Shown: positions 3,231 through 61,660 of the stretch, in pieces
How the letters are laid out: each line of letters opens with the position of its first letter
Position numbering within the stretch: the stretch's first letter is position 1
Assembly (NCBI GenBank): GCA_029851415.1
Contig: CM056742.1
Span: 98,252,976-98,316,975, forward strand
Direction: 5' to 3'
DNA: 64,000 nt
From: Eretmocerus hayati
Lineage: Eukaryota; Arthropoda; Insecta; Hymenoptera; Aphelinidae
Position numbers and translations under genes: made by a program
Notes under the pieces: model-generated
What the model was told of the DNA's origin: nothing
Seen by the model: the letters and a program-made list of their open reading frames with translations, nothing else
Databases searched by the model: none

Positions 3231-3278
3231 AAATCCACTTAGATCTCCTGCTTGAGGTTTGCACCGTTGATCACTGAT

Positions 3279-5772: not shown

Positions 5773-5778
5773 TGCTAG

Positions 5779-9289: not shown

Positions 9290-9938
9290 TAAACCTATTG
9301 TCACCTTATGTTGGACTCAGTCGATAAAGTTTTTCGCTTGAATCAAAACAAAATTGACCATTTTACTGAAATTTCGATTGTTTCTTGAACAAATGAAAAT
9401 GTAAGATTTAGCTTTCCGCTCAATCGATTGGCAAGTAGATTGTGTGTTCTTTCAAGACAGCAACAGCCTCCTTTGTATCTTATCGGCCCGTTGACCCTTA
9501 TTGGATACTGTTACAATTTTCAGCCTCCTCAGTCAGAATTATACTTGTACCACGGTCTTATCTACAGGTCCGTCAACTTCCGTGGTCAAGGAAGGTCCAC
9601 TACTGAAACCGTAAATAAGCTTCGTTCCGTCACCACCACGCGTCTCCGCTTGTCCTTCGAGAGGCGGCCGAGCGCGTGCGCGCAGGAGAGGAGATCGCCT
9701 GCTTCTCTGTCTGATGCATGCTTGATGCTTAGCTCGGTGGCTCATGCTTGCACGAGTTTCATAAAACCGTGCTCTCGTCGAATTTCCTGACGACCCTCGA
9801 TTGCATTGATAGCAGTATTATCTGCTTATCAATGCAGGGTCTCATATGTCAATCTTCGCTATCGCTAAACTCAAACTTATCATAAGTCCCAACTGGGGCC
9901 AACAAGCTAAGAGGTAGGTTTTCGTTGCATTAGGAACG

Positions 9939-10027
9939 TCGTGTCTGCGGTCGAGCGGATAGTTTTATCGATCAATTTTTGCATTCGATGGTTGCAGGTT
10001 CAATTCTCGGACGGGGAAATTTTTTTT
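9939..10027 (+). ncRNA. tRNA-like Pol III unit in the left arm of FB-A
   Basis: An A-box-like segment (TGCGGTCGAGCGGATAG) is followed about 40 bases later by a B-box match GGTTCAATTC at 9997-10006, then a run of eight or more T from 10019. Spacing and terminator are those of a tRNA gene or tRNA-derived SINE. Acceptor-stem pairing is poor, so it is tRNA-like rather than a functional tRNA. The B box lies 446 bases from the element tip, against 442 in FB-B. Whether it is transcribed is not known. Confidence 0.55.
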
Positions 10028-10162
10028 CTCTTCATTAAAGACAGCTTATTACTTTTGAAGACCTAAGTATTCATTATCGGTGTATTTCTTCCATTTTTTT
10101 TTAAATTACGGACTTATTCATAAAATGCCAACGTTTTTTGAGATTTTCTTAACGTCAATAAT

Positions 10163-11423
10163 TGGGGCTGCCACAATACAAGACAATACAATAATTTGCC
10201 ATATGTCGATATTGGTTCCATGAGAATGTGTCTATATCGATGTCGTTATTGGTAGCGAGAACTATTGAGGCTCACTTACTGTTATTGTATCGACCTCGAC
10301 CAATAATTATTGCGATATTTATCGATATCGTGTCTAAATTATAGTCTCAGGTGAGGATGGTGCTAACTCACCCCAAGCCGTTGTCTTCTTCAAAATCCTT
10401 GTGAACAAAATCGATGATGTTATTAGAAACCTCGATCACAAATTTGATCGAGATTCAATCGATGAAAAGCTTTTACTGGCATTTCAACAAGGAAGACATG
10501 AGGTATTGAAGCACTACCGTAAATGCAATTGGATATACTCAGTGTCGCTCATCTTGGACCCTCGTTATAAGTTTGCTGATTTTGACACCACTGGATGGGG
10601 TATAAGGTGCTGAAATCTGAAGCAGTAAATAAGTTCGAGGAGATCTGAAAAGAAAAGTAGTTTGATGTTTTCTCTGATCGGTCTTGTGCGATGAACGAAA
10701 CGTCAACAAATTGCCATAATGATAATACCTCCGATTTGCCTTTGATCTATGATGCTCCTGAAACAAGTGGTACAGACATTTGGAAAACAGAAATAAGAAA
10801 TTATTTGGGATATTCTCGTGCTTCAATGAGCATTTCTATTTTGGAATGGTGGAAACAACATGCTTTTTCGTATCCAATACTGTTACGGATGGCCCGAGAC
10901 ATCCTTGCTATAATGCCAAGCGCAGTCCCGGTCGAAAGATTATTTTCACAAGCTAGAGATGTCGTCACGCCGAATAGATCTTTTCCAGAGAATGAGTCTA
11001 TTAGAGCAATGTTATGTATCAATTCTTGGGCCAATAGCTCATTGAGGAAAGAAATCTGTGAATTGGAAATCCCATGATTGCTGTGATATTAGGAATTCAT
11101 TTCTGTCAAAGTTCAAATGTGCGTATAATTATTTTCGTCTACATTTACTATCTGTTTTAAGAAAGATTACTCAATATTATCATTGTAATATCCAACAGAA
11201 CTCATTTGTGTACCGTAGCTTCGCCGAAAAATAGCAGAATTGGCATCAATATCCATATTATCGCGATATATCGCGATAAATTATCGATCAATAATTTATA
11301 TTGATGGAGTGATATCGTTATTGTCTCGTCCGGAAATCTGACATATTGATGTTGATATCGATATTGAAGTTATTGATATCGCGATACAATAACGATAAAT
11401 TATCGACTATTGCGGCAGCCCTA
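10163..11423 (+). mobile_element. hAT-superfamily transposon nested in FB-A
   Basis: Terminal repeats are TGGGGCTGCCACAAT on the left and TAGGGCTGCCGCAAT reversed on the right. The flanks TCAATAAT (10155-10162) and TGAATAAT (11424-11431) form an 8-bp duplication with one mismatch. Subterminal regions are rich in TATCGATA-like words. Transposase remnants lie inside. The right arm of FB-A shows the corresponding site without the hAT near 11745-11760. Confidence 0.85.
10401..11077 (+). pseudogene. hAT transposase C-terminal remnant
   Basis: The first part contains SLILDPRYKFADFD, a motif found upstream of the hAT dimerisation region. The second part carries the hATC dimerisation signature: ILEWWKQHAF, YPILLRMARDILAI, then VPVERLFSQARDVVTPNRS and LCINSWAN. 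Stops and frame changes separate the two parts (around 10612-10690), and the N-terminal zinc finger and catalytic core are missing. It would have cut and joined hAT ends; in this state it cannot. Confidence 0.85.
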
Positions 11424-12110
11424 TGAATAATATACTAAGGAACAAAATTCATGGTCTGGAATAACCAATTCGGGGAAATGGGGAAACATTTTCCCTGCGA
11501 AATAATGGCCTTATCTTTACTGTTTTTTTTTTTTTGCTAATCTTGCAAACTGATGGCTTGACAAGATTAGCAAAAAAACCGTAAAGATAGAGCCGTTGTT
11601 TCGCAAATCAGTGATTTGCAATTGGAGAAAGTAGTGCCGAATCTGGCTACGGATTCGTTTTTAAAGTGGGAAAATACAGATAAGAATTATGTTTCCCCAA
11701 ATGGGTTATCCCAGACCGTGAATTTTGTTCCCCAGTGTATTATGTATCGACGTGAAAGAAATCTCAAAAAACGATAAAATTTTATGAATAAGTCCGTAAT
11801 TTAGGGAAAACGAAAGGAATACACCGATCACTCAATTAAAATACTTATGTCTGTTCGTTATGAAGTGATTCTTCAAAAAGTGAATTTCTTAGAATTCATA
11901 ATTTAAAGATTTATTCCAGTTGATATTAAGTTTCAATCGAAGAATTATGAGTGACTTTATTTTTAAATCAATATGAATTAAATGAATTTAATTTAATTTT
12001 ATGGAAAAGGATTTGGAAGCGAAATTAATTAGCTAATTAGTTCAAATATGATATTAAAGTAAGTGCAAATAGCCCGTGGTCTTCAAGAGTAAGAGCTGTC
12101 TTGAATAAAG

Positions 12111-12200
12111 GAAAAAAAGTTTCCCAGTCCGAGACTTGGACCTGCAACCATCGAATGCAAAAATCGACCGATGACGCTATTCGCTCGACCGCGGACACGT
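12111..12200 (-). ncRNA. tRNA-like Pol III unit in the right arm of FB-A
   Basis: Inverted counterpart of the unit in the left arm, read on the minus strand: GCGGTCGAGCG, then GGTCCAAGTC in place of the B box, then a T-run (AAAAAAA on the plus strand near 12112-12118). The B-box copy is changed relative to the left arm (GGTCCAAGTC against GGTTCAATTC), so the two arms have diverged. Confidence 0.5.
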
Positions 12201-12566
12201 CGTTCCTAATACAACAAAAACCTACCTCTTAGCTTGTTGGCCCCAGTTGAGGCTTATGATAAGCTTGAGTTTAGCGATAGTCGAAGATTGACATATGAGA
12301 TCCTGATTTGATAAGCAGATAATACTGCTATCAATGCAATCGGGGGTCGTCAGGAAATTCGACGAGAGCACGGTTTGATGAAACTCGCGCAAGCGTGAGC
12401 CGCTGAGCAGCAGACAATCCCCTCTCCTGCGCGTACGCACTCGGCCGCCTCTCGAAGGATCAGTGAAGACGCGTGGTAGCTAAAAGAAGCAGCTTACGCC
12501 GCCTCAATAGTGTACCTTCCCCCTCCATGGGAGTTGTAGGACCTGTGCATAAGACCGTGACTTGTA

Positions 12567-12798
12567 CACTTGGCGGTAGTTGATTCTTTCTGACATCCGA
12601 CTGAGTATGCCGATCACAACAATAAGTTATTGTTGTGAGTGAGGTTCTCGGCGCGCGAGCGCAGCAATCCAACTCTGATGATTTTCGACGACGAAGCACG
12701 CCAAAAATCATCAGAGTTGAATTACGCCTCACTCACAACTTATTGTTGTGATCGGCATACTCGGTCGGACGTCGGAAAGAATCAACTACCGCCAAGTG
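12567..12798. mobile_element. 232-bp palindromic MITE with TA duplication
   Basis: The ends pair over about 80 bases, starting CACTTGGCGGTAGTTGATTC, with TA on both sides (12565-12566, 12799-12800). An inner hairpin is built on CAACTCTGATGATTTT and its inverse. It abuts FB-A on the left (the FB-A duplication overlaps its first base) and the next MITE on the right, sharing the TA. Confidence 0.82.
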
Positions 12799-12800
12799 TA

Positions 12801-12963
12801 TACTCGAGAACAAGGTGAACTGCAATGGGATGACGGTCAGCGGCCATTCGAGATCTCCCATCTCACTCGCACCTATTGAGTTAACCCACGAGCACGAAGG
12901 AGACGACAGATCTCGAACGGTCACTGACCGTCTTCCCGTAGCAGTTTACCTTGTTCCCGAGTG
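12801..12963. mobile_element. 163-bp MITE, family 1 copy B
   Basis: Same family as 1518-1681: the outer repeats contain AACAAGGTGAACTGC and the inverted form. TA flanks both sides (12799-12800 shared with the neighbour, 12964-12965). No coding capacity. Confidence 0.83.
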
Positions 12964-13066
12964 TATCAGATGCATGAATGCACTGATACACTGCTCAACA
13001 CATAGATCTGCTGCCTTCTATGTTTGATTGTTTCCAAGCCAATGTACACAGGACTGAGCATTTCTC

Positions 13067-13455
13067 ATTAAGGCAATGCGGTCACCGTGCAAGCTGAAAG
13101 TTATTCGCACTTTTGTCCGATACTCTTGCGATTTGAGCTAAACGACGAGAAGACGAGTGTTTGTTATCATCTAACTTGAGTTCGTCTTCGTCGTTTAGCT
13201 CAAATCGCAGAAGAATCGGATAAAAGTGAGAATTACAATGTGCCTGTATTATAGGTTAGGAGGTTCCCGCGGCCGAGTTATTCCCACTCTTATCCAATTC
13301 TCTTGCGATTTGAGCTAAACGACGAGAAGACGATCTCAAGTTAGATGATAATAAACACTCGTCTTCTCATCGTTTGGTCGAAATCGCAAGAATGTTAGAG
13401 AAAAGTGGGAATAATTCTCAGCGTGCACGGTGCACGGTGACCGCATCGCCTTAAT
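13067..13455. mobile_element. Composite palindromic element bounded by TTAA
   Basis: Outer arms pair as TTAAGGCAATGCGGTCACC and its inverse, with TTAA at 13068-13071 and 13451-13454. Inside are two hairpins (about 13101-13234 and 13278-13414), both built on CTTGCGATTTGAGCTAAACG and its inverse. The two hairpins are themselves inverted relative to each other, so the unit can fold in alternative ways. TTAA suggests a piggyBac-type MITE, but TTAA is self-complementary and the call is tentative. Confidence 0.65.
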
Positions 13456-14234
13456 CACAGACCGACGATTTTCACACTAGCCCGGGTTTCAAATCAATCG
13501 TTCAAATGAATTACTTGTAAGTTGGGCTGGAATTTACAGTCGTAACTCGTAATCCGGTGACTGGATACCGAGGCGCCACAATCGGTGCGGCGAGTCGTTA
13601 ACCTATGTCTGAGGCACTATGATATTGTTCATGGACGTAGCAGACAAAGCTAACGTGCGTGTCATTTGTGATGAGATCAGCTGTTTAGTTCTTCACAGGT
13701 TCACCTAGCCAAGTTATTTTACAGTCAGTAACTATTTTTCTCATTTTTATTCTGACTTGAGACAACTGAAAATTTTATTCAGAAGGAGATGTTTAATTTG
13801 TTTTTGACAAAGGGCATTTCTCAGTCAACCTCGCGTCATCACCATCAAAGATTTGCGAGTAGAGATGTGTGCCATGGTTGTATTTAGCAGCTGAAAAATG
13901 TACGAGAAAACATTATTATCCACACTTGTTTAATGGCTACTTGACTCGGCGATATTGCGGAAATAGACAAAATACTGTACTATAGTCATCATGGGCGATG
14001 ATGTTGATATGGTGAGTAGACGTAACACCGTATCCCCTTATGAATAAACGCAGATTATTGTAGGTACGGACACAGTCAAAATGCAAATGGTGTACACATA
14101 AATTTATAAATCATTTTCTCTCAACAACACCTTTACGCTTGCTAGTAGAACCTCGTAAACTCATGAAACGTCTATTGAACAGTAAATGTTCACTTTAATC
14201 TTTTTCTTCACATTGTTTTCAAAACATTCTTCAA
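13456..14234. other. Upstream region of the HARBI1-like gene
   Basis: No large open frame. A possible first coding exon lies at 13991-14011: an ATG followed by GGCGATGATGTTGATATG and a GTGAGT donor. Its phase does not join cleanly to the next exon at the only obvious acceptor, so it is only a candidate. Confidence 0.4.
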
Positions 14235-15684
14235 TTGGAAAATATAGAATTCTTGTATGAATTGGAAGTTGACGGAGGTACTAAGGAATTTGATGGAGAC
14301 GATTATGATTTATATAGAGGAAGATTTCCTAAACGCTACCTCAGAGATTTCCAAAATACCTTTGAACACTGGGATGCGCATCAATTTACAAGCAGATACA
14401 GAATCTCAAAAGCTGTTGTCATGTATTATATTCTCTCTCTAATCAGAAATGAACTTGACCTTGCCAATAGTAGAAGAGGCTTGCCGGTATCTCCTGAGAT
14501 TCAGTTGACACTAGGACTTCAATATTATGCAACGAACATGTTCCAAGTAAGTTACATTTTTACAAATCTTTCTCATACTTGGTCATAGCTCTCCATGTGC
14601 ATCTGATCAACAGATTATATCAAGTATCTTTTGTGCTCAAATTCTGATTCAAACCATCTCTTAATCCTGGAACGGTTTTGTTATCAAAATAATTTTATAA
14701 TAAACACAACGAAACATAACTAAAGTCTAGAAAGCCAATGGTGATATCCATGGCCTCTCATAGTCAACAGTATGTCTATGTGTTAGAAGAGTCTCACTAG
14801 CTTTGGCTGGACTATTCACTCAGTTTATACAACTTCCAACTGATGACGAGCGAATTTTGAATGCTCAATTGTTCTACACCATTGCTGGTATGCGGAGCAT
14901 ATATGCTTTGATAGATGGTGTTCTGATAAAAATAGCATCTCCTGAGAGTGCAATTGCTGAGCTCTTCAGGTGCCGCAAGGGCTATTTTGCTCTCAATGTC
15001 TTGGTGAGCAGCTCAGATTTCCATGGCGTAGCATAAGATATATGTGCTATCTCTGAAATGAATCAACTAAAATAAATGAACCTTGTACTGATGAACTACA
15101 GGCTATTCTAGATGCAAAGGGATCATTCCGCTACATGGATGTAAGGCACCCTGAGAGCGTTCACGACATGACAGCTTTAGATAGAAGTGCGCTGAAAATG
15201 TTGTTCGAATGAGGTATTTTAAAAGGTGATTTGATGCATGCATCTTGGGAACCATCCCATCATTTCTGCTGCTTTTCAAAGTCGACATAACTTTTCTGTA
15301 TCAATTACAGGAATTTTATGGGGTGACCCAGGATATGGATGCAAGAGGTATTTATTCACACCGTTTGTACAACCGTCTAATGCAGCCGAGCAAGCTTTCA
15401 ATGACAGTCTTATATCTACAAAGAGCTCCATTGAGAGGATCTTCGGACGGTGGGAGAAAAAATTCCCATGTTTGCGCCTAGGTTTGTCCACCAAACTGGA
15501 CACATCAATTGCCACAGTCTGTGCGACAGCTGTGCTCTGGAATATTCATGTCAACTTGAATTATTCTAACCGATGGGACCCAGAAAACTTCGAGATCCAG
15601 GCAGAGGCTTTTGCTGAACCACCAAGAGCGGATTTGAGTGGTCTAGAGTATAGACGTGAATATGTCATGAGATACTTTGCGTGA
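14235..15684 (+). pseudogene. HARBI1-like PIF/Harbinger nuclease gene, four exons, one in-frame stop
   Basis: Exons 14235-14546, 14764-15003, 15102-15225 and 15311-15684 join in frame through introns with GTAAGT, GTGAGC and GTGATT donors and TAG/CAG acceptors. The translation has the HARBI1 order: FEHWDAHQFTSRYRISK; RRVSLALAGLFTQFIQLP; first catalytic Asp in LIDGVLIKI; CRKGYFALNV; second Asp in DVRHPESVHD; GDPGYG and LFTPF; and the Glu in SSIERIFGRWEKKFP. The only lesion I see is TGA at 15210-15212, where family members have a residue before GIL. The 5' start is unclear. It could be a decayed Harbinger transposase or a broken domesticated copy; no terminal repeats were found. Confidence 0.85.
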
Positions 15685-16519
15685 ACCTCCCATTGTAAAA
15701 TTATTCCCTTCGTAAGCAGAAGCATTGTGAAGCTCTTGCGTTCTCACCAGAACATTTCTCACGTTGATTATTAATATTAGTTCTTGTAAAATTGGGATAT
15801 TGTGCTCTAGAATGTTAGAATTCACAGTATCGTGTGAAGGGTCAATGTATGCATTTTTTTATATTGCCAAAGTAATCTTGTTCTACCTGCTTCTATCGTG
15901 TTATTGTTGGATTAAAATCACAAATATCTTCACTGGATGATACTAAAAGTCTATTTTGAATATTTTTCATAATTGAACGATTTTTGCCATAGGAGTAAAT
16001 GAATCTATGCTGCAGCTGAGAGTATAATTGGAACATACCTGATTTGTTGATATTTGAAAAAAGACTCAAATAACAACTAGTCAAAAAATTTGAATTGACC
16101 ATACGAAACTCGTATGAATATTTGCGCGGAAATTGCTTCCAATAGCATACTTTTTAATTTTTGATTGATTATGATAGTATGTAGAATTCATCCTTGTTGC
16201 CACAAAAGGATTTACAATAAACCTTTGAACTGTAAAGTGCAACAAATGGAATAAGCCTGTCCATATGTGGTTGTTACTACTTTTCAAGAACACACTTTGG
16301 GGAGGATCGAATTTTCATGTACGTTTTTGATATATAAGCACTACAACACATGATGAAATGTGAGTATTTCAACAATATAATGCTAGTACTAGGATGTATT
16401 CACGCGCGCAAGCGCCCATGTTGGGATTACTTCTTTCCAAATAAATTTATTAGCAATCTTTTGCAATGAATTCATCAACGATTTAATAGAATTCTGCATA
16501 CACATTTAAATTATTCTCG
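15685..16519. other. AT-rich stretch without a supported gene
   Basis: Sequence after the HARBI1-like stop, up to the next LTR. No recognisable coding region or strong repeat was seen, and I could not identify Harbinger terminal repeats in it. Confidence 0.5.
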
Positions 16520-16523
16520 ATTT

Positions 16524-17294
16524 TGTGACGGCCGAGTCATTCCGTCTTCCTCTCTCCCTGGACCGAATATTGTAATGATGACATTTTGTGTTACAGCTTA
16601 AGCGCGAGAAGAGTTGCTGCATAGTTAAGCCAGGAGAGAGACAGAGAAATGGCACCGTACTAGAGCCCGCGCGCCCCATATTATGAGCCGTCCCTGGCGC
16701 AAGCCAATGCTGCTCCGGCCAGCAACCTTTTTCTGTACATTCCGTCGTGACGTTTTGGAGCGCTCGCACGCGCCTATCGAGCTTATCGTGCGCGTTGTCC
16801 GCGCCACCCGGAGCCCGTCCTTGGCATGATTTAGCCGGGGCTCCGGTGCGTGCATTTTATATACTCTGTGCCGTGGTCGACGATGACCAAAATCACCATC
16901 GTCTGGGACAATTGCGAGCTGCCTGATCGCCGTGAGCTGCGAGGGCCGGTGCCCGATCTGAGGTCGAGTGATCATCCTGCGTCAAGGCCATTTATCCTGT
17001 AAGTGCCTCTCGCAAATCTCTCTCTCCTCTTTCTGGGCTTATAGTGGTATTTTTTCCTAAATGCGCCCTCGATAGTCGTGCTCGGGCTTGATTCATCCGA
17101 ACGGTCAGCGGACCGATTTGTAAATAGTATTTTCTTGAATATATGCCCTTTTTTCATGATTTTAATCGAGTATGTGCTCATTTAGTGCTCCCCTCTCCTG
17201 ATTTCTTGAACAATTACAGACATTGCTCACTCCCTGAGCTTCTCAAATGAAAGCAGGCTTTGCCTGCAAGTGACGAGTCACCAAAACCGTCACA
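16524..17294 (+). repeat. 5' LTR of the gag-only element
   Basis: This 771-bp LTR matches 24376-25150 closely, with scattered substitutions and small indels (for example near 16615-16625 and 17045). The terminal octamer TGTGACGG is inverted at the other end. It contains C/T-rich tracts and GC-rich segments and no coding region. Confidence 0.9.
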
Positions 17295-17442
17295 TGGCGC
17301 CCAACTAATGGTGCTGTCAGTTCAAGTGAAATCAGTTCAAAAATTTGTGCATCAAGTTGGCGCACCGTCACATGGCGCCCGACTGATGGTGCTGTGAGTT
17401 CAAGTAGAATCAGTGTAAAAAATTGTGCATCAAGTTGGCAAA
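17295..17442 (+). promoter_or_regulatory. Tandemly duplicated primer binding site region
   Basis: TGGCGCCCAAC directly after the 5' LTR matches the primer site complementary to the 3' end of insect tRNA-Lys. A second copy, TGGCGCCCGAC, starts at 17373. The surrounding ~78 bp, including the LTR-like CCGTCACA and a GCATCAAGTTGGC stretch, is duplicated in tandem, giving two potential primer sites. Confidence 0.75.
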
Positions 17443-18144
17443 ACGTCATATTACCCAAGTTCAAACTCTGATTTTTGGAGAGAGTAGCACTCGAATGTTG
17501 CTTTGTGTGTATATTGAATTGTAAGTGTATTAGTGAGTGCAGTCTGAATGAGTTAGCCATGTTATGCGTGCTGGACAATACTTTTCCATCGCGCTCCGAC
17601 TTAGGCGTGTGGACGAGTCTATTGCTCGCGCGTCGGTTGACTCGCTGTACAAAATTTTTCACGTCCTGATATTAAACACTTGTCCGTTCGTATTTCTTCC
17701 TCATCATTTGATGCACTTGGCTCACTTTTTATGTGCAATATCTCAGTGCTCAATTAATATTTAAATGCACATAATTTGATCATTTCCTGAAGTTCTTGGT
17801 CTGATTTGTAAAACCTTAAAATCATTCAGTTAGCTTCTCGCGACATTTTGGCGTCCCGTGCTATAGGGCCGCAACACAACAGCTCGCACGACATATATAG
17901 TCATTGTTTACATCGCGCGTTTGCTGCCGCTCGCGATCGGCCAAGCTTATCTTTGGGTTCGATTTTTGAATGCGTGAGTGCAAGAGAGACAGACGCGCTG
18001 GCCTAATATTTCGAAAATTTTCTATGTCGCCTTCTTTGATCGGCCATCGATGACCAAAGGTCATATGTGCAACACGTATGTGTATGTGTGTAGAGTGCGT
18101 GGATAGGTACAAATAATTTGCGAGCGAAACTCAATGATGTATAT
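17443..18144 (+). other. Leader of the gag-only element, left part
   Basis: Non-coding sequence between the duplicated primer site and the inserted palindrome. I see no gene in it. Confidence 0.5.
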
Positions 18145-20238
18145 GAGTGATTCTGGAGCAAGCTGGACAAAACCGTCACCAGGGGGGTCTGGGAAAAATC
18201 CGCAAAAATTTTTTTCCATTAGTACTATGTTGAAATAGTACGAAAAAATTTTTTTCAGATTTTTTCGGCCCCCCCTGTGGGCCCCAGGGCCCATGAAAGG
18301 GCCATTTTAGGCCCTTTTTTAGCCTATTCTAGGAAAATCATAGCTCCGACGCAATTCAATATTTTTCAACGTACTTGGGCGCATTTTTCTCGTCAAGACT
18401 AGTACTTTTGAAAAAAAAATTGTCCAAGGCCACTTAGTGAGCCTGACGACTTCTGCCACCTATTTATTGAGAGCAAATTTTAGCGATTTTTGGGCTTGCT
18501 TCAAAGTGATGTAGCTCCCACTAGACATGTGATAATCGACTTTTACAAGTAGTCATTTTGAAGGTCTTGAAAATACCTACAATTTGCCCACTTGTAAAAG
18601 TCAATTATCGCACTTTTTGTTGGAGCTACAGTCGATACAAGTTGAGCTATTTACGAAAAAGTCGAAAATTCAGGACTCGATTCCAAAAATATATCTTAAT
18701 TTTTTTTCACCAAACTTGTGCGAAAATGTTCTTTCAGACATCTACTTTTAGTAAAAAAAAATTTGGCGGAGGTTATTTTTTTTTATTTTTTTTGCCGAGC
18801 GTTACAAAATGCCGCATTTCGTGGTTTTAGCAAAAACAGCATCTTTGACCACGGTCACATATGCTCCCATCTGGACTGATGTGCACCAATCTGTGCGAAA
18901 GTACTCCCCAAAGTACCCCCAAGTACGTGTAAGAAGTTGCGGGGACGAGCCTCCACCCAGGAGCGAGCTGTAGGTTCTATTTACCGTGTCAAAAATAGGC
19001 ATTATTTTGGCTATTCGAGCGTAAGCGACTGAGAGCATGATTTTACTCGTTCTGGCTCACAAATGAGATAATGGGGTAGAATGAGGATCCAAATATACTT
19101 TTCCGACTCAAAATGACCATCTAAACACAATTCCGAGGTCAGTTTAGCTCTAAAATGTCTTCTAGTGACTCAACGGTGTCAGAACCCGTCGACAGAATCT
19201 AAGTTCTTAAGGGACAAAGGGACGACTATTTAGAGCAAAACTGACCTCGGAATTGTGTTTAGATGGTCATTTTGAGTCGGAAAAGTATGTTTGGATCCTC
19301 ATTCTACCCCATTATCTCATTTGTAAGCCAGAACGAGTAAAATCATGCTCTCAGTCGCTTACGCTCACATAGCCAAAATAATGCCTATTTTTGACACGGT
19401 AAATAGAACCTACAGCTCGCTCCTGGGTGGAGGCTCGTCCCCGCAACTTCTTACACGTACTTGGGGGTACTTTAGGGAGTACTTTCGCACAGATTGGTGC
19501 ACATCAGTCCAGATGGGAGCATATGTGACCGTGGTCAAAGATGCTGTTTTTGCTAAAACCACGAAATGCGGCATTTTGTAACGCTCGGCAAAAAAAATCA
19601 AAAAAAATAACCTCCGCCAAATTTTTTTTACTAAAAGTAGATGTCTGAAAGAACATTTTCGCACAAGTTTGGTGAAAAAAAATTAAGATATATTTTTGGA
19701 ATCGAGTCCTGAATTCTCGACTTTTTCGTAAATAGCTCAACTTGTATCGACTGTAGCTCCAACAAAAAGTGCGATAATTGACTTTTACAAGTGGGCAAAT
19801 TGTAGGTATTTTCAAGACCTTCAAAATGACTACTTGTAAAAGTCGATTATCACATGTCTAGTGGGAGCTACATCACTTTGAAGCAAGCCCAAAAATCGCT
19901 AAAATTTGCTCTCAATAGATAGGTGGCAGAAGTCGTCAGGCTCACTGAGTGGCCTTGGACAATTTTTTTCTCAAAAGTACTAGTCTTGACGAGCAAAATG
20001 CGCCCAAGTACGTTGAAAAATATTGAATTGCGTCGGAGCTATGATTTTCCTAGAATAGGCTGAAAAAGGGCCTAAAATGGCCCTTTCATGGGCCCTGGGG
20101 CCCACAGGGGGGGCCGAAAAAATCTGAAAAGAATTTTTTTCGTACTATTTCAACATAGTACTAATGGAAAAAAATTTTTGCGGATTTTTCCCAGACCCCC
20201 CTGGTGACGGTTTTGTCCAGCTTGCTCCAGAATCACTC
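18145..20238. mobile_element. 2.1-kb palindromic foldback element with ATAT flanks
   Basis: The arms are 18145-19157 and 19229-20238, about 1 kb each and nearly identical, with a loop of about 71 bases. The tips read GAGTGATTCTGGAGCAAGCT and its inverse. ATAT lies on both sides, a likely 4-bp target duplication. Matching open frames in the two arms mirror each other and show no protein family, so it looks non-autonomous. It sits in the leader of the LTR element and is therefore younger than it, or was carried by it. Confidence 0.85.
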
Positions 20239-21377
20239 ATATAGATATACAAAGATGTTGCGATGTGTGTTCAGATACTGATTTCGATTCTTGTGCTTTT
20301 TAAAAATCTGGAAAAATCGGCCGATGGCTAGAAACTTCTGGACGTGGTCCTCGTTTGTTTGTGCACAATTATAATAATTTATTTTGTCTATTTGACTATA
20401 CTTTATGCAATTTGAGCCACTTGGTCATATCTTGACCTTTTTTTTCTGAGAAATGTATATGATTTTGAAATTTCTTTCATAAATACATTGAAATATCGAT
20501 GACTCTAGCACACTCGTGCATCGCAGAATCCAATTGTTAATGACGATTTCGGTAACAAATTTTTTATTCATCATGGAAAATTGGTCGTTTTGACCTAAAA
20601 ATTCTCAAAAATTCTAAATCATTGTATAATTGACCTGCAATAATTTTTTATGGATCAAAATGGTCTTTCTTGGAATATACTCGATGTATATAGATATGAT
20701 AATTATCATGAAGTCTAGCATCGCGCTATTGTGTGTTTGCCTGAATTAGCGTCGTTTATGATAAAATAAGCTGCGCGAAATGCTTTTACGCAATATTTCT
20801 CAAGTGATTGTTTGAAGAATTCGAACAAATTGCGTAGCTCTATAGGAATCCACCCGGCGTAAATTTTTCAGAGAAAAGATTATTGAAAAAATCACAAATA
20901 TTCAGACATTTTCAAAGTTTAGCAAATTTTTGTCCAAACTGACTCTTACGAGGCTCTTACTCATTACGGGCCTAACTTCTTGTATTTTACTGCCTATAAG
21001 AGTTCTCTGATAATGAACTAACGATTTTTCCCGCAGGATAAATCTAAATTTCGGACTTATCCTGTCCATGAGATGAACCAATACTCAGTCCAGTTTGTTC
21101 ATTCCTTCCTCGATTATGAACATCTTAGTTGAATCAATTGACTGCTAGCTCCAAATTTGTACCGTGTCATTATACAGCTCATTTGGACTTCATCCGTGGG
21201 CACAGTTTTTTCCTTAGTCATTAACTATAGACTTCGTCTTTTGTTTGATGATAGGAGCACGGTCAAATCTAAAGCGAACATTTCAACTGATGAAGCATTT
21301 ACAGAAGTAACTTTGAAAATTTCGAAACCTCATTTCTCTTTTTCGTGATTGAAGGAGTATCTTGAAAATATTTCCAT
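20239..21377 (+). other. Leader of the gag-only element, right part
   Basis: AT-rich non-coding sequence between the palindrome and the gag start. No supported gene. Confidence 0.5.
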
Positions 21378-23495
21378 GATGTCTTCTAATAATTTTTCGA
21401 GTAATCGAGTTCTCACGTGGTCCAATTGGATTTGTAACCTCTCTGAGGATGAAATTCGAGTTGCACTCGCAAAGCTTGAGCTGAAATTCGATAGTTTTTT
21501 CAACAATCATCAGTGATTGATGCGGCGTTTGATTGGCCAGTATGTGATGGATGATTTTGTAGAGAATGAGAGTTCCATGTGCGATATTGCGCTGAAAGTA
21601 CACCGTGACGCTATACGTAGTGACTTTATTGTTAATGTCGAAAGTGCGTTACTTCTTAAAGAAATAGGTGAGACATACGCGCGCGCACCCAACACCACCG
21701 TTCCCGTGCAGCAGAAGAGTTCCAGTGGAACATATCCAGCTGACAATGGATGTCAGAATTTACCCACTTCTGCCGATATCGAAAGGTGGAAAAATGACAC
21801 TTTAGCACTAGCGACTTGCGAGCGAGATTTCAAAGCGAGCAATCAGTCCAATATACGTTGTGCTACTGTCAATGATGAAAAGTCTTGCAATATGCTCAAT
21901 TACGGAAATTCAGCGTCATCATCGCCTGTTTCCCCGAGCACGCAGCTTGTCAATTTAAATTCAATTTTATCTTCCGATCACACGATCGATAGCAATATTC
22001 AGACTAATCATCCCCTGTCATCGAATAATTCTGATGATTCGGATGAATTTCCTGAGAGCGCTGATCTTTGCAATTTCTCTGATGAGATATCTGTGTCACC
22101 AAGACCATTTCAGATCGCAAAGTCGGTGCAGGTCTTCTCACCCCAAATTCCTGAGTCTGATGAACAATCAAGCTCATCGTTGGATCGATTTCAAAATATA
22201 TCACCAGATCATGACCTTTTGTCAAATATTGATTTTTACAGGCAAGATTATTACTCGTCTGTATTGACGGATGTTCACGTGGCTCAATCTTGTGCCTATC
22301 CTCCATTGCCAGGCATGACGTCTGTTCAATTTAGCCAATTCGGGCATGAAATTTCGCACGAGCAAGAGTGGCTCTGCCCAGATAATCATTTTGATTTGGT
22401 ATCTTTGCAATTGAACCGAGAAATGAAATCTTCCCATCTCATTAGGGCAGAAAAACGTGGCAGCGCTCCAGGAGAAAGTACATCTTCTGAGTCCTTCACA
22501 AATCCTCTGGATGTCATTGATTTGTATCGCCCTTGTGAGTCATTGAATCTTTCCAACATCAATTCATACTGATCATTTATACCACCATCCGGTTTCCATT
22601 TGATGAGTGCAGTCGGCAATGTAAAATATGTCAAGCACGCGCGCGTTGTAGTGCAAACTTGTCTGCCTAATGAGATTGTCAAGTTTGTTGAATCTGGAAA
22701 TGCATCAAGATTGGGAATGGGCCTGATCAACCCTAATCTTTTCAACTTCGCCCCTCAGTTTCAGAACAAAGTGACATTTCCCAGGCAATTGTATTCGTCT
22801 CGTACCGACTTGCAATATCTCATGTTTAAAGTTTGTTGGAACCCATATGAAACACTTGATGGTCGCAGGATCGATCACAAATACTGGTCTGAGTATGAGG
22901 TCGTGTTTGAGCAATCTCGACCGACCAATGAAGCATTTTACCTCGTTTTGACTGAAATCGAGGCCGAGCCCCATGCTCATGATCAAAGAATACTAGAGAA
23001 TGATTGTTCCAATTCGTTCCACGCACGAGCATTGTGCAAGTACCGCAGTACCATTTTCAGGTACCATTCCCAATTTCGATATTAATGGAGTCTCGGCACG
23101 CACTTTTATCTGATATGGCACATCTCTTGCCTGAATGCGATACTTTGCAGAATTCAGTGTGTGATAGCCTAGCAAAGACTCTTAAATTTTTTGATCTGAA
23201 AGAACTGACCTATTATTTGGGATTTTTTAGCTCACCGCACAGGACGCAACTGTCCACGCGGCTTGAGCAATTCGACCTCAATTTCGACGAACTGTTTCCG
23301 ACATTCTATAGTCGTGATAGTATGCTTATATTTGATGCAACCCATTGTCATCGATCAGCTGATCGATTTCTCTCAATTGACTCGAGGCCAATGTGGTCAA
23401 TACGACCGTGTCAAGTCAATACAACAAATTTAGACCGAGAGACTGGCCCAGGAGGGGGCATAGCAACGCCATCCATAGGCGCAGGAGCAGCCTAG
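21378..23495 (+). pseudogene. Gypsy-like gag remnant
   Basis: The likely start is the ATG at 21378. The first 45 residues include VLTWSNWICNLSEDEIRVAL, a SAP-like N terminus seen in insect Gypsy gag proteins, and end at a TGA (about 21513). The same frame then continues (RRLIGQYVMDDF) to 22572 through a Ser-rich linker. Further frames (22600-23085 and 23060-23495) carry a folded-looking region (DGRRIDHKYWSEYEVVFEQ, FDLKELTYYLG) and a basic tail in a shifted frame. No zinc knuckle is clear. At least two stops and one frameshift make it non-functional. Confidence 0.6.
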
Positions 23496-24375
23496 TGCCC
23501 GTAGCAGACAACCACGTGCTACTGACTGCAGCTGAGGATCGTCATCGTTCCGGAGGAAGATTCGTCGATGGACAGCGAGGGATGTGCGCGCGCCAGTCTC
23601 ACTCAGTGGTTAGGTTGTGTCCGAACTATTTCGCGCGAACTAAGTGTGTTTAAAAAATTAGACATACTTACGTATATGAACGCAAATTATTACATGTATA
23701 TCTAGCTCATAAGTAGATACATTTATATTTTTAATAAATCATTGGCCAATCAAAGTTATGCGGACTCACCCCCTAGAGAACGATGAATGAGGTCAATTGA
23801 CCATGATATTATTGTATGATTTTATTTTCGTATGAATTCATAAGTATGCATTAGGCCTAGTATGTATGGAGTGTAGTATGGTTCAACGTTAAAGTATAGG
23901 CTATGGGACTAATGTCCGAGAGTATGATTTGTATATCGTATGCATGAAGTGCTCGATGAGTGCCCAATGGTCAATTCAAGAGACCAAGTGAATTAGTGAA
24001 AACCATGAGATGGAATCACCTGAAATGTGCCTCAAGTGCAAAAACAGTACAGTGAAATGAACGCTCCCGTGAAGAATTTTTGAGTTCAAAAGAACTTTGA
24101 TTTCTATATGAACTGATTTTGACTAAATTGTATGTCCGTATGAGTGACCGCGTTTCAAATTTTTTTCGGGGAATACAATCTACTTCCTTTTGAAAATCAT
24201 ATTTTCTGGGTCATGTTCGACTTCATTATTGATTTATCTCTTTGATCAGAATAATTCACTTTTCATTCACATATACTGAGCGAATGGCTCTATCCCTTTA
24301 GTTTTCGGCCCAGATTGAGAGAGGTAGGTTTCCGAGCTGGTACGCCAGCCGGCTAACCAGCGTCTGGGGGACGGG
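23496..24375 (+). other. Non-coding 3' part of the gag-only element
   Basis: AT-rich sequence where pol would be expected. No protease, polymerase or integrase motif is present on either strand. Ends with the polypurine tract. Confidence 0.55.
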
Positions 24376-25150
24376 TGTGACGGCCGAGTCATTCCGTCTT
24401 CCTCTCTCCCTGGACCGAATATTGTAATGATAACATTTTGTGTTACAGCTTAAGCGCGAAAAGAGTTGCTGCATAGTTTTGCCAGGTAAGACGGAGAGAG
24501 ACAGAGAAATGGCACCGTAGTAGGGCCCGCGCGCCCCATATTTTGAACCGTCCCTGGCGCAAGCCAATGCTGCTCCGGCCAGCAAACTTTTACTGCACAT
24601 TCCGTCGTGACGGAGCGCTCGCACGCGCCTATCGAGCTTATTGTGCGCGTTGTCCACGCCGCCCGGAGCCCGTCCTTGGCATGATTTAGCCGGGGCTCCG
24701 GTGCGTGCATCTTATATACTCTGTGCCGTGGTCGACGATGACCAAAATCACCATCGTCTGGGACAATTGCGAGCTGCCTGATCGCCGTGAGCTGCCAGGG
24801 CCGGTGCCCGATCTGAGGTCGAGTGATCATCCTGCGTCAAGGCCATTTATCCTGTAAGTGCCTCTCGCAAATCTCTCTCTCCTCTTTCTGGGCTTATAGA
24901 TTGTATTTTTCCCTAAATGAGCCCTCGATAATCGTGCTCGGGCTTGATTCATCCGAACGGTCAGCGGACCGATTTGTAAATAGTATTTTCTTGAATATAT
25001 GCCCTTTTTTCATGATTTCAATCGAGTATGTGCTCATTTAGTGCTCCGCTCTCCTGATTTCTTGAACAATTACAGCAATTCCTCACTCCCTGAGCTTCTC
25101 AAATGAAAGCAGGCTTTGCCTGCTAGTGACGAGTCACCAAAACCGTCACA
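24376..25150 (+). repeat. 3' LTR of the gag-only element
   Basis: Partner of 16524-17294, about 775 bp. The polypurine tract immediately precedes it, and ATTT follows as the target duplication. Confidence 0.9.
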
Positions 25151-25154
25151 ATTT

Positions 25155-26306
25155 CAATAAAAAAGATATGATTTTTGACTGATCAAGTAGTACCTCTGAA
25201 TAAATGTTAATATGAAAATGTCTTGTCTAAATTTTCAATTATTTCCAAGTAAACATAGTCAAATAATCTATCAAGATACTCGATTAATCAGATAAATCAT
25301 TGTGATAATATGTTAAGAACGAAATTTTAACATATAAATATTTCCTTTTCTGTTGTTCGAACAGTTGGTCTTCATATCAATTGGCTCATTCGTTGGTTTT
25401 GTTTAGTATCATACGTGATTGAACGTTGAACGCTTGTAAATGGAGCTGTAATGAGTTCCCGAATTTGTATAAATAATTTTTGATGTACTATCATGTATGA
25501 ATAATATATCACCTTAATTTTTATGGTGAATTCAAAGTTCATTAATCATTTCAGCCGTCGTTATATAATGTTATATTTGAATACATTTGCTCGACATTAT
25601 ATTTTTATATCGAGTAACTCATTTATCGAACAATTCCAGTAAGCGTGCCACAGCGATGAAACCTATTTCCATTCAAATTGCAAAGAATAAATGAAATTGA
25701 TAATTATACTATCCAATAGGATAGTCCGATTCACAAAATGTCAAATACTCACTTCGATTCTTGCTTTGATTATGGAACAATAATTTGATCATCTCATACA
25801 AAGACACCGTTTGAATGAGATTGTCAGAGGTTGATTTTCTCGACAAACATTCATATATATCATAATCATCAATATGAAATGAATATTCATTTTTAATATT
25901 AATGATAATCACGGATTGAAATTCTCAAGAAACTGTCTAGATCCTTGTAATTCAAATCCATTCTATACCTCATGTCAATATTGGTGTTTGTTTGCATAAA
26001 AATTGAAAATCTTTGGTCATCATCGTTCCCTGAAAAGAAAGGAAGTCTTATATTTTTTAATGTTTCTCAAGAAATACATTCAGTCTAATAAATCATGAAT
26101 CAGAAATAATTGAGTTCGTTACCTCGTAATATACTTGTTTGTACATTGAATTCCTCTGTTATATTTTCATATTATTTTCTTGCTAACCATTGATGTGAAC
26201 ACCTTGTCTTTTCCTATATATACCATCAATAAATCTGTATTTGATGGAAACCTTGAATTTTGAAAAAACAAAAATTTCAATTGTCGAACCATCACGATAT
26301 ATTTTC
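25155..26306. other. AT-rich stretch without a supported gene
   Basis: Lies between the LTR element and the Helitron helicase. The left (3') end of the Helitron should be here, but I could not identify a convincing CTRR terminus with hairpin. Confidence 0.45.
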
Positions 26307-28105
26307 TCAAATAATTTCTTTGAATACGATATTTTTCATTTTTGTAGCAATTTCACTGACATATAATTCAAAAGAATCCCATGATCTAACCCGCGATAGA
26401 GCCACGTATAATTGCCCATGGGTAAAAACTTGTTTCACTAAATTTATGCTAACTTTTTGAAATGTTTGTCCTTGAGATTTATCCATGGTCATCGCAAGAG
26501 CAGGTTTTGTAGGAAACTGTAAACGCTTAAATGATAATGGATAATCTCTTTCTGAACGCAACGAAGTTCGACATAAAAAAACTTTTTCACCCGATTTATC
26601 TCCAGATAAAATTTCGCACAATAATGCGTGATTTCTCATGGCAATCACTCGTAATCTTGTTCCGTTACAAAGTCCTTCATGAACTGAAAAATTCCTCATC
26701 AACATGATTATGCAATTATTTCGTAATCTCAATACGGATAGTGGTAAAGAAGTAGGATTGAGAGAATTTAACATTTCGTGGGATAATGATTTGTTTATGA
26801 TTCCATTTTCCGCAATATCTGCAGAATCGATTCCATTATAAATACGTTCAGCTGATTCATCGAATAAATCAATCGCTTGTCCATTGATTTCATCAACTTC
26901 TTGGTGGCGCGTTGATAGGATAGCTACATCTTCCAATACGTGATATTTCTTATTCCTTACAATGTCTAGATACGTTTCGTTAACTATATTTCCATTTCTA
27001 ATAATGCAATCACCCGGGAAAAAATTGAAATCTATCATATCGTCAATATCGTTAATTTCCCCCGTTCCTACGTTCAATAAAAATTTACTGAAGTTAATTT
27101 CGTTCGGTAAAACACGCATCTTTTTGTTCAAGTGTTTTGTGGAAAAATGTTTCCATAACTCGCTACCTTTGATTGATAAATTTATCAATTCTGATTTCGT
27201 TCCCCAGGTAATACAGGCAGAATTTGTTTGAAATCTCCGCCTAGAATTACCATTTTTCCTCCGAGAACCAAATCTTCTTGCATTAATTCTCTCAACAAAC
27301 GATCTAAAATTTCGAATGCATAACGCGGAGCCATGGGTGCCTCATCAACTTTAATCAAATCTACTGATCGTAGGTAATCCGCCTCTTTCGACTGAAATTT
27401 TATGTTAGAAGAAGAATCAGCGAACATTGGGACAGGTAATCCAATTACTTTATGGAGTGTTTTTCCTCCCGGAAGTAAAGTAGCAGCAATACCTGTGAAA
27501 GCCATCATGCACACATTTTTGTTTTTCTGCTCTAGAATTTCACGCAATGTTTTATAGACAAAAGTTTTCCCTGAGCCACCGGGACCATTTATGGATAAAC
27601 AATCATCATTAGGATTTGTATTTGATGTTCCATTACGTGACAATTGCTCCACAACATGATCGGTGATGTGTTTTTGATCCGAATTCAATGAGTTGTACAA
27701 ATCTGAAATATTATACGTTTCATTTGCATGGCTGTCGCTATTGACATTGTCCGACGATAGAATTTGCGGATTATGAATATTAGGAAAGAAATCAATAGGA
27801 TCTTTCTCTTCTAACACCAACATACGACAAATCGATCGGAAACATTTGTCGATCGCTTCATTCTCATTCATATGTTTTGAAAAATCTTCACTCATGTTGA
27901 TTTTGAATTTATCCCATAAAATTTCGGGTCGAGCCGGATGACAAAATATCAAAATTCTAACAAATAAACGTCGTAAGAGTTTTGGCATCGTATAAAAAGC
28001 TGCATCACCCAGAGATATCGTCCACTCCTCATCGTCTTCGATCAAACCAAGTGCTACGCAAGCTACTGCGTACGTATTATATAATACGCCATCAACCTCT
28101 CTCAA
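26307..28105 (-). pseudogene. Helitron Pif1-family helicase
   Basis: ATP-driven DNA helicase domain of RepHel. Walker A is GPGGSGKTFVYK and Walker B is LIKVDEAPM, followed by LGGDFKQILPV. The second part (27188-26307) has ILSTRHQEVDEIN, the TMDKSQGQTF motif and VALSRVRSW near the end. The frame changes at about 27185 between the two halves; otherwise the domain is complete. Confidence 0.92.
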
Positions 28106-29165
28106 ATTTTCGAAACTTGTACTTCCTTTTCTATGTCATAATGAAATGCGTAAATGAAACAATTCAATATTACTCGGAAAAACAGAATAAATTCGGCCGA
28201 TACTTCCAAACTGCAGGATTTGTTTCCGTGCTATCCACATATATTTAGAAACTCCATTCAAATTAACTTTGGCAAATCTATAATGTTCTGGTATTTGTGA
28301 ATAAGTATACTGATGAGTTTCCGGATCTCTCTGATTTAATTTGAGAAATTCAGTCAACATCGTCGATTTATTTTCTAACTCATCGAGGTTCATTCCATCT
28401 AGTTCATCTTTTATAACAATCGAATGTTCATTTTGGAGATGTATTGGTAATCTCACTATGGTATGACTCAGAACGTGTAACCGGAAATGTTGTCTCCAAT
28501 AAGCTTCACAAGGTCCCATATATCGATTTTCTGAATACCACAAAATTTCATTGTGATCTTCGACAGTAACACTTCCATCTTCATTGTCCGTATTGCGATC
28601 ATTGGAAATTGTAATAGCGACAGCATCATGTCTTTTTAAAATGTATTTGAAAATGTATTTGATTGCTTTCAAACTCGAAACAATCTCAACATTGATGTGG
28701 CAATCAAACCATAATAAAAGAATCAAATTGTAAGGTACAACGTGCTGATTAGAAACTTCATATCCGTTCGGTCCACGGTCGTATACACAGGTCTAACAAC
28801 TCCCGTGGTGGGGGTAGGTCCGCTACTGTGACCAGTTGGGGTTCCTAAGTTGGCCACCCGGCGGCGCGTTGATCTGAGCAAACAGCTCGTGGCTGCGCGG
28901 CTCGTCGGTCCGGTCGTCTGCTTTCGCCATGCTAGGTCCCGCGCGCACTCCAACGAGTTGCATCATGCATGCATTACGGACTTCTACTTGCTTTATCTAT
29001 CCTCAATCAGCTCGGGAAGGATAATTAACAATTTCTGTCGCTCAATTGGAGTATTATATGTTACGATGCATTTGATATTGGGTGACAGATTCTCAACCCA
29101 ACTAGAGTGAGCCCATGTGGGAGCAAGTGACTTATATATAAGTATTTGTATCGGTCTAGACAGAT

Positions 29166-29261
29166 GCCACGATAGCCGTGTGGTCAAGGTGCCTGTCTCT
29201 TGTTTAGCTAGCCCCAGTTCAAATCCCCGATATTCCAATTTTTTTTTTTTTTTTTTTTTTT
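29166..29261 (+). ncRNA. tRNA-like Pol III unit in the left arm of FB-B
   Basis: A-box match TAGCCGTGTGGTC followed by B-box match GTTCAAATCCC (29217 on), then a run of about 23 T. The layout is that of a tRNA-derived Pol III unit with a terminator. The sequence differs from the unit in FB-A although its distance from the tip is nearly the same. The T-stem does not pair well, so it is not a functional tRNA. Confidence 0.6.
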
Positions 29262-29626
29262 CAATAGCAATCTTCAAATGTTTTTATTCTAATCGGTCAA
29301 TTATGGAGTGATTTATTCATATGGGAATTTTGTTATATGGATATCCGAGAGAGCAGGAATATCCAAAAGTGGTGCAATTACTTTCAAAACATTTGGAAAA
29401 TTTCGGATTTACTGTGTACATCGTGTTAAGTGATGATGAAAAAGAGAGTTGACGAATGCTCATTGAAATGTCAGAAATAATGACGAAAAGATTGATGCTC
29501 GGCATGTAAGGTATGAGCAAAATTCGAAATACTCTCTCTCGGATATCCATATCACAAAATTCCCATATGAATAAATCGCTCTCTAATTGCCCGATTAGAA
29601 TAAAAACATACGAAGATTGCTGTTGA

Positions 29627-29718
29627 AAAAAAAAAAAATTGGAATATCGGGGATTTGAACTGGGGCCAGCAAAACAAGAGACAGGCGTCTTGACCACACG
29701 GCTATCGCGGCATCTGTC
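29627..29718 (-). ncRNA. tRNA-like Pol III unit in the right arm of FB-B
   Basis: Inverted copy of the unit in the left arm, read on the minus strand: GATAGCCGTGTGGTC, GTTCAAATCCCC, then a T-run (AAAAAAAAAAAA on the plus strand). It differs from the left copy at a few bases. The two units point toward the centre of the palindrome. Confidence 0.6.
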
Positions 29719-30622
29719 CAGACCGATACAAATACTTATATATAAGTCGCTTGCCCCCACATGGGCTTACTCTAGAAATGCATCGTAACATATAATACTC
29801 CAGTTGAGCGACAGGAATTGTTGATTATCCTTCCCGAGATCATTAAGAATAGATAAAGCAAGTAGAAGTCTGTAATTAGGCCTATCCGTAATGCATGCAT
29901 GCAACTCGTTGGTGTGCGCGCGGGACCTCATGGCGAGAGCAGACGACCGGACCGACGAGCCGCGCAGCCGCGAGCTATGTTTGCTCAGATCGACGCGCCG
30001 TAGGTGGCCAACTCGCGAATCAGCTGGCAACATTAGCGGACCCACCCCCACCACGGGAGTCGTTAGACCTGTGTATACGACCGTGGTTCGGTCGCATATA
30101 AACTTTCCCATCATTTCTTCTCGGATAAGTAGGATAATTGTTCTCATCTATCGTCGTCTCGTCATGAAAATCGAATGGAAATTTATAAGAACATTTGCCA
30201 TCAACTAAACACCAATCTCCACATGGTCCATGTATCATGTGTTTCATAACTTTCGAATCAGCAACCGGATGTGTCTCTGGATTCGGAATTTCAGCACAAA
30301 TATACCTGTCAATTTTTTCTTTTGTATCAATTTTGTCTTTTAAAGATATCAAATGATGTACATGTGGAAGACCTCGTTTTTGAAACTCTACAGAGTATAT
30401 AAAATCAGTCACCAATCCGAAAAATTTCTCATTAATAATCCTTTTTCTGAATTCTGAAATTTTTAAATCGAACACTCTACAAATCAAATCAGGCCGATCG
30501 CTGGGTTGTTGCCAAGGATGTAAATTTTCTCTGATTTCTGGCCAGTTCGGATTGCACGTCATGGTAGCAAAAATATCAGGTAATCCTCTTACCCCAGTTT
30601 GTCTCATCGCATCTTGATACTT

Positions 30623-52855: not shown

Positions 52856-52864
52856 AAAAGTCGC

Positions 52865-54426: not shown

Positions 54427-54453
54427 ACTCGACTTCGTGCCTCCAGTAAGAAT

Positions 54454-61125: not shown

Positions 61126-61174
61126 ATATGTTATATCCATCAAGTGAAGTGGTAGTTTCATTATCAAGCCATGA

Positions 61175-61513: not shown

Positions 61514-61660
61514 TAATGCAGACTATATCTGGAATGATAGAAAGCTGATGGAGGTTGCTTTCCAGCTCAGTGAATTTATTTTTAATGGAGTGGGCATTTT
61601 GATAGTATAAAGTGAAGCTGGATTGTTTAGGTATATGCAAGTGATGAACTGGCTTCTCAA

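Follow-up and report, generated by a model that had tools for sequence, protein, structure and literature searches.

Foldback elements with P-type tips in Eretmocerus hayati carry a tRNA-like unit, probably an inherited passenger, at a fixed place in their arms

Two foldback elements and their setting

When a stretch of 64,000 nucleotides from the hymenopteran Eretmocerus hayati is considered (contig CM056742.1 of assembly GCA_029851415.1, C2:98252976-98316975; hereafter the window), two palindromic, non-autonomous elements can be delimited, FB-A at 9551-12559 and FB-B at 28774-30085, each of which bears in both arms a unit resembling a transfer RNA (tRNA). A preliminary description made from the letters alone had given these coordinates, common tips and perfect 8-bp target-site duplications (TSDs), and all of this is borne out. 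The FB-A duplication, ACTTGTAC, occupies 9543-9550 on the left and 12560-12567 on the right, that of FB-B, GTTCGGTC, occupies 28766-28773 and 30086-30093, and the tip pattern at up to three mismatches matches the window exactly four times, at the four element ends, with 0.11 matches expected.

Within its left arm, FB-A harbours a nested hAT element (10163-11423, plus strand), flanked by the 8-bp sequences TCAATAAT/TGAATAAT and containing a Dimer_Tnp_hAT domain in the open reading frame (ORF) 10661-11077. This transposase piece was rejected as FB-A's own transposase, as it sits in the nested element. Without the hAT element and its duplication, FB-A measures about 1.74 kb and is palindromic over most of its length, except for an extra stretch in the right arm. 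FB-B, of 1312 bp, lies inside a Helitron-type ORF: when FB-B plus one TSD is removed in silico, an open frame runs across the junction and joins ORF 30020-30622 to ORF 28136-28792. The former is recognised by Pfam as Helitron_like_N (8.9e-33), with a PIF1 helicase ORF (2e-38) downstream after a stop, and the latter has no Pfam match. In a DNA fold, the strand of the whole FB-B palindrome forms one hairpin with long, near-perfect arms. FB-B found no match among plasmid and phage records, and its spurious ORF gave eight candidates in the protein collection, none at E ≤ 0.01. Tip matches in IMG/VR (one) and in GTDB contigs (three) were likewise rejected as relatives, since BLAST against FB-A and FB-B (E ≤ 0.01) aligned 38 and 23 bases in two of them and nothing in the other two.

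Anatomy of the tRNA-like units

As had been described, a tRNA-like unit with a T-run is present in all four arms. In the left arm of FB-A it extends over 9941-10016 (plus strand; arm position 391-466), with an A-box-like CGGTCGAGCGG at 9948-9958 (plus strand; one mismatch to the consensus) and a B box, GGTTCAATTCT, at 9997-10007 (plus strand), the T-run coming next and ending at about 10027. The unit of the right arm lies at 12123-12198 on the minus strand, and its B box is mutated (GGTCCAAGTCT, 12132-12142) and degenerate (GGTCCAAGTC); neither this nor the nested hAT element had been mentioned before. In FB-B the left unit (29166-29237, plus strand) has its A box at 29173-29183, its B box at 29216-29226 and its T-run at 29239-29261, and the right unit lies at 29640-29711 on the minus strand. 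The T-run is found 22-23 bases past the B-box start in all four arms. From B-box start to tip there are 447 bases in FB-A left, 443 in FB-B left, 418 in FB-A right and 425 in FB-B right, within one base of the 446, 442, about 417 and 425 first reported; the four-base agreement of the left arms is partly fortuitous, because left and right offsets differ within one element (447 vs 418, 443 vs 425).

How far these units resemble tRNA depends on the yardstick. The consensus of A box, B box and T-run alone occurs at chance level, with four distinct window matches against two to four in each of ten shuffles. Longer patterns are more discriminating: a tRNA D-arm pattern is matched by the FB-B arms with one and two mismatches (three window matches in total, the third elsewhere with three mismatches; 0.28 expected), and a T-arm pattern by the FB-A arms with none and one (0.05 expected in the window). 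In the window, ARAGORN detects no tRNA, and a search of Rfam up to E = 10 brings no tRNA match; in nine further loci no unit scores as a tRNA with Rfam, and over 59 loci ARAGORN calls no unit a tRNA, the only two tRNA genes that it reports being situated in sequence flanking a single FB-B copy (L049). Thus, the units are tRNA-like and not tRNA genes, and the proposal to confirm them by tRNA calls on the arms failed with the covariance model and with ARAGORN alike. The flanking genes of L049 lie at 2207-2280 and 2552-2625 of that locus and are assigned to Ile (gat) and Thr (agt).

The most tRNA-like unit is the consensus of FB-C, a third family described below (TGGCCGAGGGG ... GGTTCAAATCCCGG). 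The folding energy of the four window units is no better than that of shuffles (26 to 182 of 200 fold equally well), and unit patterns have no exact match in IMG/VR. Arm-to-arm identity is alike inside and outside the unit, both in FB-A (66/76 vs 444/508) and in FB-B (67/72 vs 429/465), and the unit is therefore not specially preserved between arms. Beside the FB-A unit, at 9890-9925 and at the same place in other FB-A arms, a stretch CAACTGGGGCCAACAAGCTAAGAGG resembles the opposite strand of the FB-B unit (E 0.022-0.4 in 4/40 sampled arms), a likeness that may be due to chance.

Foldback families across the genome

A search of the host genome (692 Mb, 17 contigs) shows FB-A and FB-B to be the heads of two families with multiple copies each, and FB-C to be clearly related to FB-A. 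Among the best 40 of 169 candidate places scored with the FB-A arm, 30 loci include 16 elements with both full arms, 14 of which have a perfect 8-bp TSD. For the FB-B arm (best 40 of 230 candidate places scored; 42 rows, 30 loci), both ends are present in 25 rows, with a perfect TSD in 21 and a match of at least 7/8 in 24; three elements were fetched twice, which leaves 22 distinct ones, window copy included, 18 perfect and 21 at 7/8 or better. Both families thus show the 8-bp TSD expected of non-autonomous members of the P superfamily. The palindromes amplify whole: the arm most similar to a paired arm belongs to some other locus, and is not its partner, in 33/34 cases for FB-A and 50/50 for FB-B (12 of these 50 from elements fetched twice). 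Ongoing gene conversion between arms was not seen.

Two long FB-B copies, C1:107506713-107510559 and C1:116914908-116918532, were considered as autonomous partners and turned out to be FB-B with other, nested palindromic sequence near arm position 360-380. Foreign sequence near position ~360-380 of FB-B arms is seen in three loci (L065, C1:107506400-107510900; L066, C1:116914600-116918900; L067, C1:116305500-116307600), palindromic in the first two, and these insertions cluster around TATATATAAG, a possible insertion hotspot.

Elements recovered by their tips alone

The arm queries themselves contained the unit, and elements were for this reason also sampled by tip alone. The suggested genome search by tips, made here with a 20-base tip at up to one mismatch, returned 458 occurrences, and none with a reversed control. 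The sample consists of 40 previously unread places among 100 listed (all exact; from C1 and the first part of C2) out of the 458, typed by best consensus, with two assignments (L092, L094) resting on only 28 and 118 bases. It comprises 23 arms of A, B or C type, 15 of a type named FB-D and two P-element ends (L085, L086). Of the 23 foldback-type arms, nine end before or just inside the unit and 14 extend to its place, and all 14 carry it, although in L110 the match is no more than partial (E 0.0035); four sampled arms went into the FB-C consensus, so that their reaching the unit is by construction.

FB-D is a 0.8-kb miniature inverted-repeat transposable element (MITE) with the same tips and short inverted ends, GCTGCCAT standing at both ends (L113, 18-820; also L114, 4189-4983). 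Its count of 15 includes 13 that cluster together and two (L097, L102) placed by eye, their ends resembling the other end of FB-D. Two FB-D copies contain no unit at E ≤ 0.01. The expectation that most full copies carry the unit thus holds for foldback arms that reach its place (14/14) and fails for FB-D (15/40) and the two P-element ends, which lack it. For the suggested role of the unit in replication or in the recognition of ends, no evidence was found; FB-D and the P element have the tips but no unit.

A P-type coding relative with the same tips

Among the places where these tips occur, one of 17 kb (C1:90855432-90872355) has exact tips at both ends and encloses P-transposase domains, namely TNP-like_RNaseH_N (Pfam, 1.5e-25) and TNP-like_GBD in two pieces (1.6e-07 and 1.5e-10), plus a weak RNaseH_C (0.01, under the Pfam cut-off); it also matches the solved P transposase (8.2e-13). 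Since P-transposase domains lie between such tips, domain content indicates that the tips belong to the P superfamily. The autonomous partner that had been sought therefore has a counterpart in a coding relative with the same tips, albeit as a single, interrupted copy without matching TSD. Relatives of the P transposase are common in the genome (at least 108 matches, with 150 of 160 candidates scored), and the examined stretches of the coding copy contain no unit at E ≤ 0.01. At its left end (L112, C1:90855400), positions 1-427 and 1485-1911 form a 99.8% inverted duplication of the P-element end plus 32 flank bases, perhaps a snapshot of how a foldback arm originates, or an assembly fault.

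Distribution of the unit

Nearly all examined sites of unit-specific patterns lie in or near foldback arms. The B-type pattern has 65 sites genome-wide (control 0), 61 of them no more than 4.2 kb from the start of an FB-B arm; of the other four, three lie in FB-B arm sequence and one is solitary (C2:75577871). For the A-type pattern (85 sites, control 0), 67 sites have a listed arm or tip no farther than 3 kb away, and four of the remaining 18 were read, three being long FB-A arms and one a truncated FB-A, which brings the total in or near FB-A sequence to 71/85, every site examined. Nearly all B-type sites and all examined A-type sites are thus in or near such arms. In 348,425 bases, mostly chosen for their foldbacks, the unit occurs at 138 places (E ≤ 0.01); 137 of these border on arm sequence that is not part of the unit, and the last one (L081) is inside an interrupted FB-B arm. 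As its sites nearly all adjoin foldback arm sequence, the unit does not look like a common free short interspersed nuclear element (SINE) today, and the dispersed copies outside a host element that are expected of a tRNA-derived SINE were not seen among the sites examined, one solitary B-type unit apart.

Two single sites deserve separate mention. A solitary A-type unit, considered as a retro-copy, was rejected as such, being the truncated FB-A. The solitary B-type unit at C2:75577871 (L117/L127) has about 36 bases of arm before its A box and stops at the T-run, a shape that a copy of a Pol III (RNA polymerase III) transcript might have; no target duplication was found there.

Origin of the elements and of the unit

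The reading that we regard as probable places FB-A and FB-B in the P superfamily, as foldback-shaped, non-autonomous elements (P-MITEs of Galileo-like form) that a THAP-type P transposase moves in trans, and takes the unit to be an inherited passenger. Such a transposase would recognise the conserved outer ends (the first 20-70 bp), mobilise the elements in trans and make the 8-bp TSDs. The tRNA-like unit would have arrived in an ancestral arm at a time when the inverted arms were not yet fixed, and would since have been copied along with the whole palindrome. We infer mobilisation in trans, and likewise that FB-A/FB-C and FB-B share one unit-bearing ancestor, the stretch at this fixed place being probably an inherited passenger. 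The arms of FB-A and FB-C are homologous throughout (71-390, z 25.6), and those of FB-A and FB-B strongly share their first 70 bases. The preliminary description had proposed that position is kept and the unit exchanged: the fixed place stands, while the A and C units are one unit diverged, for which exchange is unneeded, and for A/C against B the comparison weakly favours descent from one ancestral unit, which is the simplest reading.

It is nevertheless important to stress that several observations weigh against this account, the first of which concern the coding copy. Just inside its left end there are two weak THAP pieces (E 0.027 and 0.05, under Pfam's cut-off), and the piece of the THAP region translated with X at stops has no Pfam match. 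A third tip lies internally, the left end is duplicated in inverse orientation together with 32 flank bases, and the outer flanks do not match each other; with such flanks and such a left end, the copy is by itself no proof of transposition. The exact type of its ends is also rare, with four genome sites at up to one mismatch, three of them within the copy. Common ancestry, in turn, has to contend with consensus arms that are only weakly alike beyond about 70 bp, both for A/B (z 3.1, with 1/500 block shuffles as good, and 2.8) and for C/B (z 2.3, 9/500, and 1.8, 24/500). Finally, the boxes themselves give some hint of retention: they agree in 18/22 positions between the C and B consensus (arm 231/380, p=0.036), and the B-box consensus is kept in 41/46 aligned FB-A arms, though these copies are young.

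Of the alternatives, independent insertions of SINE or tRNA-derived sequence into an FB-A/FB-C ancestor and an FB-B ancestor, which happened to hit a similar place, would fit the weak C/B arm homology, and within the window the A and B units resemble each other no more than shuffles do (z 0.1-1.2). The consensus units, however, align above block shuffles (A/B z 3.1; C/B z 4.05, 2/500), and two results set out above also speak against this alternative, namely that nearly all B-type sites are in or near FB-B arms and that unit places border on unit-free arm sequence. A test for the duplications that such insertions would leave gave a divided answer: round the FB-A unit there is no repeat within 60 bases, and round the FB-B unit a candidate 10-bp repeat with one mismatch occurs in both arms, which 0.065-0.07 of shuffles equal. 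We consider independent insertion rather unlikely.

A second alternative makes the unit a functional Pol III promoter (or TFIIIC site) of benefit to the element, for example through open chromatin or a small RNA, as a DNA-transposon counterpart of the Pol III-promoted TRIMp3 retro-elements. Its fixed place and sense, the constant spacing of the T-run, its retention in FB-A, FB-B and FB-C and the intact boxes of most aligned copies (AGTTCAAATCC is present in 39/55 FB-B rows) would fit, as would the C/B boxes. Conservation beyond that of the arm is, however, not clearly discernible for the promoter boxes in sequence comparison. Within FB-A the unit is no better conserved than the arm (0.925 vs 0.935); boxes and arm do not differ significantly between A and four C arms (68/88 vs 1077/1524, p=0.11), in three diverged B arms (51/66 vs 1003/1284, p=0.63) or between the A and B consensus (13/22 vs 224/381, p=0.58); and in a sliding control other arm positions equal the boxes (40/275 for A/C, 218/276 for B, 172/275 for A/B). 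The rest of the unit in A/C is even less conserved than the arm (145/228, p=0.04), the right arm of FB-A has a mutated B box, and FB-D spreads without any unit. A working promoter or TFIIIC site is thus unlikely, and the more demanding version, in which a P-superfamily lineage would have kept a Pol III-type internal promoter in both arms of at least three families under selection, is to be doubted slightly more.

Finally, double-stranded RNA from convergent transcription of the arms, an idea put forward initially and here taken to mean RNA that regulates or protects the element, can appeal to the near-perfect arms and single hairpin of FB-B, but is very improbable, since both units read inward from their own arm to give the same sense sequence rather than complementary ones and meet their T-runs before the loop, so that the anatomy does not predict such RNA.

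Even if the unit is no more than a passenger, as favoured here, a foldback lineage of the P superfamily has been described together with a coding relative, and tRNA-like sequence is seen to multiply inside a DNA transposon and not in the manner of a SINE, which can mislead the annotation of tRNAs and SINEs. If the unit does work, one may ask how RNA polymerase III benefits a transposon that moves by cut and paste. With many copies available, and unit-bearing and unit-less relatives sharing common tips, the question is directly testable.

Other repeats of the window

Long palindromes are common in the window, which holds 32 inverted-repeat pairs of at least 40 bp with arms within 4 kb (for instance at 18137-20246, 58387-60923, 45513-46071, 61170-61518 and 12565-12800). 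Among the 25 pairs listed, arms reach 795 and 550 nt at 93-97%, and several pairs are parts of FB-A and FB-B. ORFs resembling BEL/Pao- and Copia-type retrotransposons, mostly judged by eye, occur at 2313-7290, 37047-42269 and 51662-56373, with the frame 38304-42269 open for 1321 amino acids. The named matches of one Copia-type protein come from Trichogramma, ants and Phymastichus, all of them Hymenoptera.

Comparison with known systems

In searches of the open-access literature, no title or abstract opening was met that mentions a tRNA-like unit within the arms of a DNA transposon, a statement that holds for those searches only. Several known systems nevertheless share individual features with FB-A and FB-B. 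A foldback shape without coding capacity is typical of Drosophila FB elements. It is likewise found in Tetris, which has internal tandem repeats in its arms and no known autonomous copy, and which its authors suggest to be of Mutator type, with TSDs of 8-10 bp (PMC4079207). Here, in contrast, a P-type coding relative has the same tips.

A tRNA-like sequence resembling a Pol III promoter is present in both terminal repeats of the non-autonomous Helenus/TRIMp3 elements, for which insertion of a SINE into one repeat has been proposed as the origin (PMC10886601). The likeness concerns the promoter only: these are retrotransposons whose long terminal repeats (LTRs) are direct, whose TSDs measure 4-5 bp and whose promoter is thought to make template RNA (PMC10886601), whereas the arms described here are inverted, the TSD is 8 bp, and a cut-and-paste DNA element needs no template RNA.

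Closer in their ends are the P-MITEs of Anopheles gambiae, which have outer sequence in common with P elements, perfect 8-bp TSDs and, on either side of an unrelated centre, about 100 bp of P-like sequence (PMC1562414). Shared P ends and 8-bp TSDs unite them with the present elements, and FB-D fits this description well; FB-A and FB-B differ in that their arms are palindromic, measure about 500 bp and carry a Pol III-like unit.

Galileo, finally, is a foldback-like member of the P superfamily with long inverted arms, a THAP-bearing P-type transposase and non-autonomous copies of variable arm structure into which other transposable elements have inserted (PMC4168063, PMC3688188). The word "tRNA" is absent from the main text of one of these papers (PMC4168063), and the TSDs of Galileo are mostly 7 bp with the consensus GTANTAC (PMC4168063), whereas those of the FB-A and FB-B families are 8 bp, varied and without GTANTAC. 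In long inverted arms, P-type transposase, non-autonomous copies and variable arms with inserted elements, the likeness is nonetheless evident, and on these sequence features FB-A and FB-B appear as a variant of the Galileo-like, non-autonomous P elements in which a Pol III-like unit is probably carried as a passenger.

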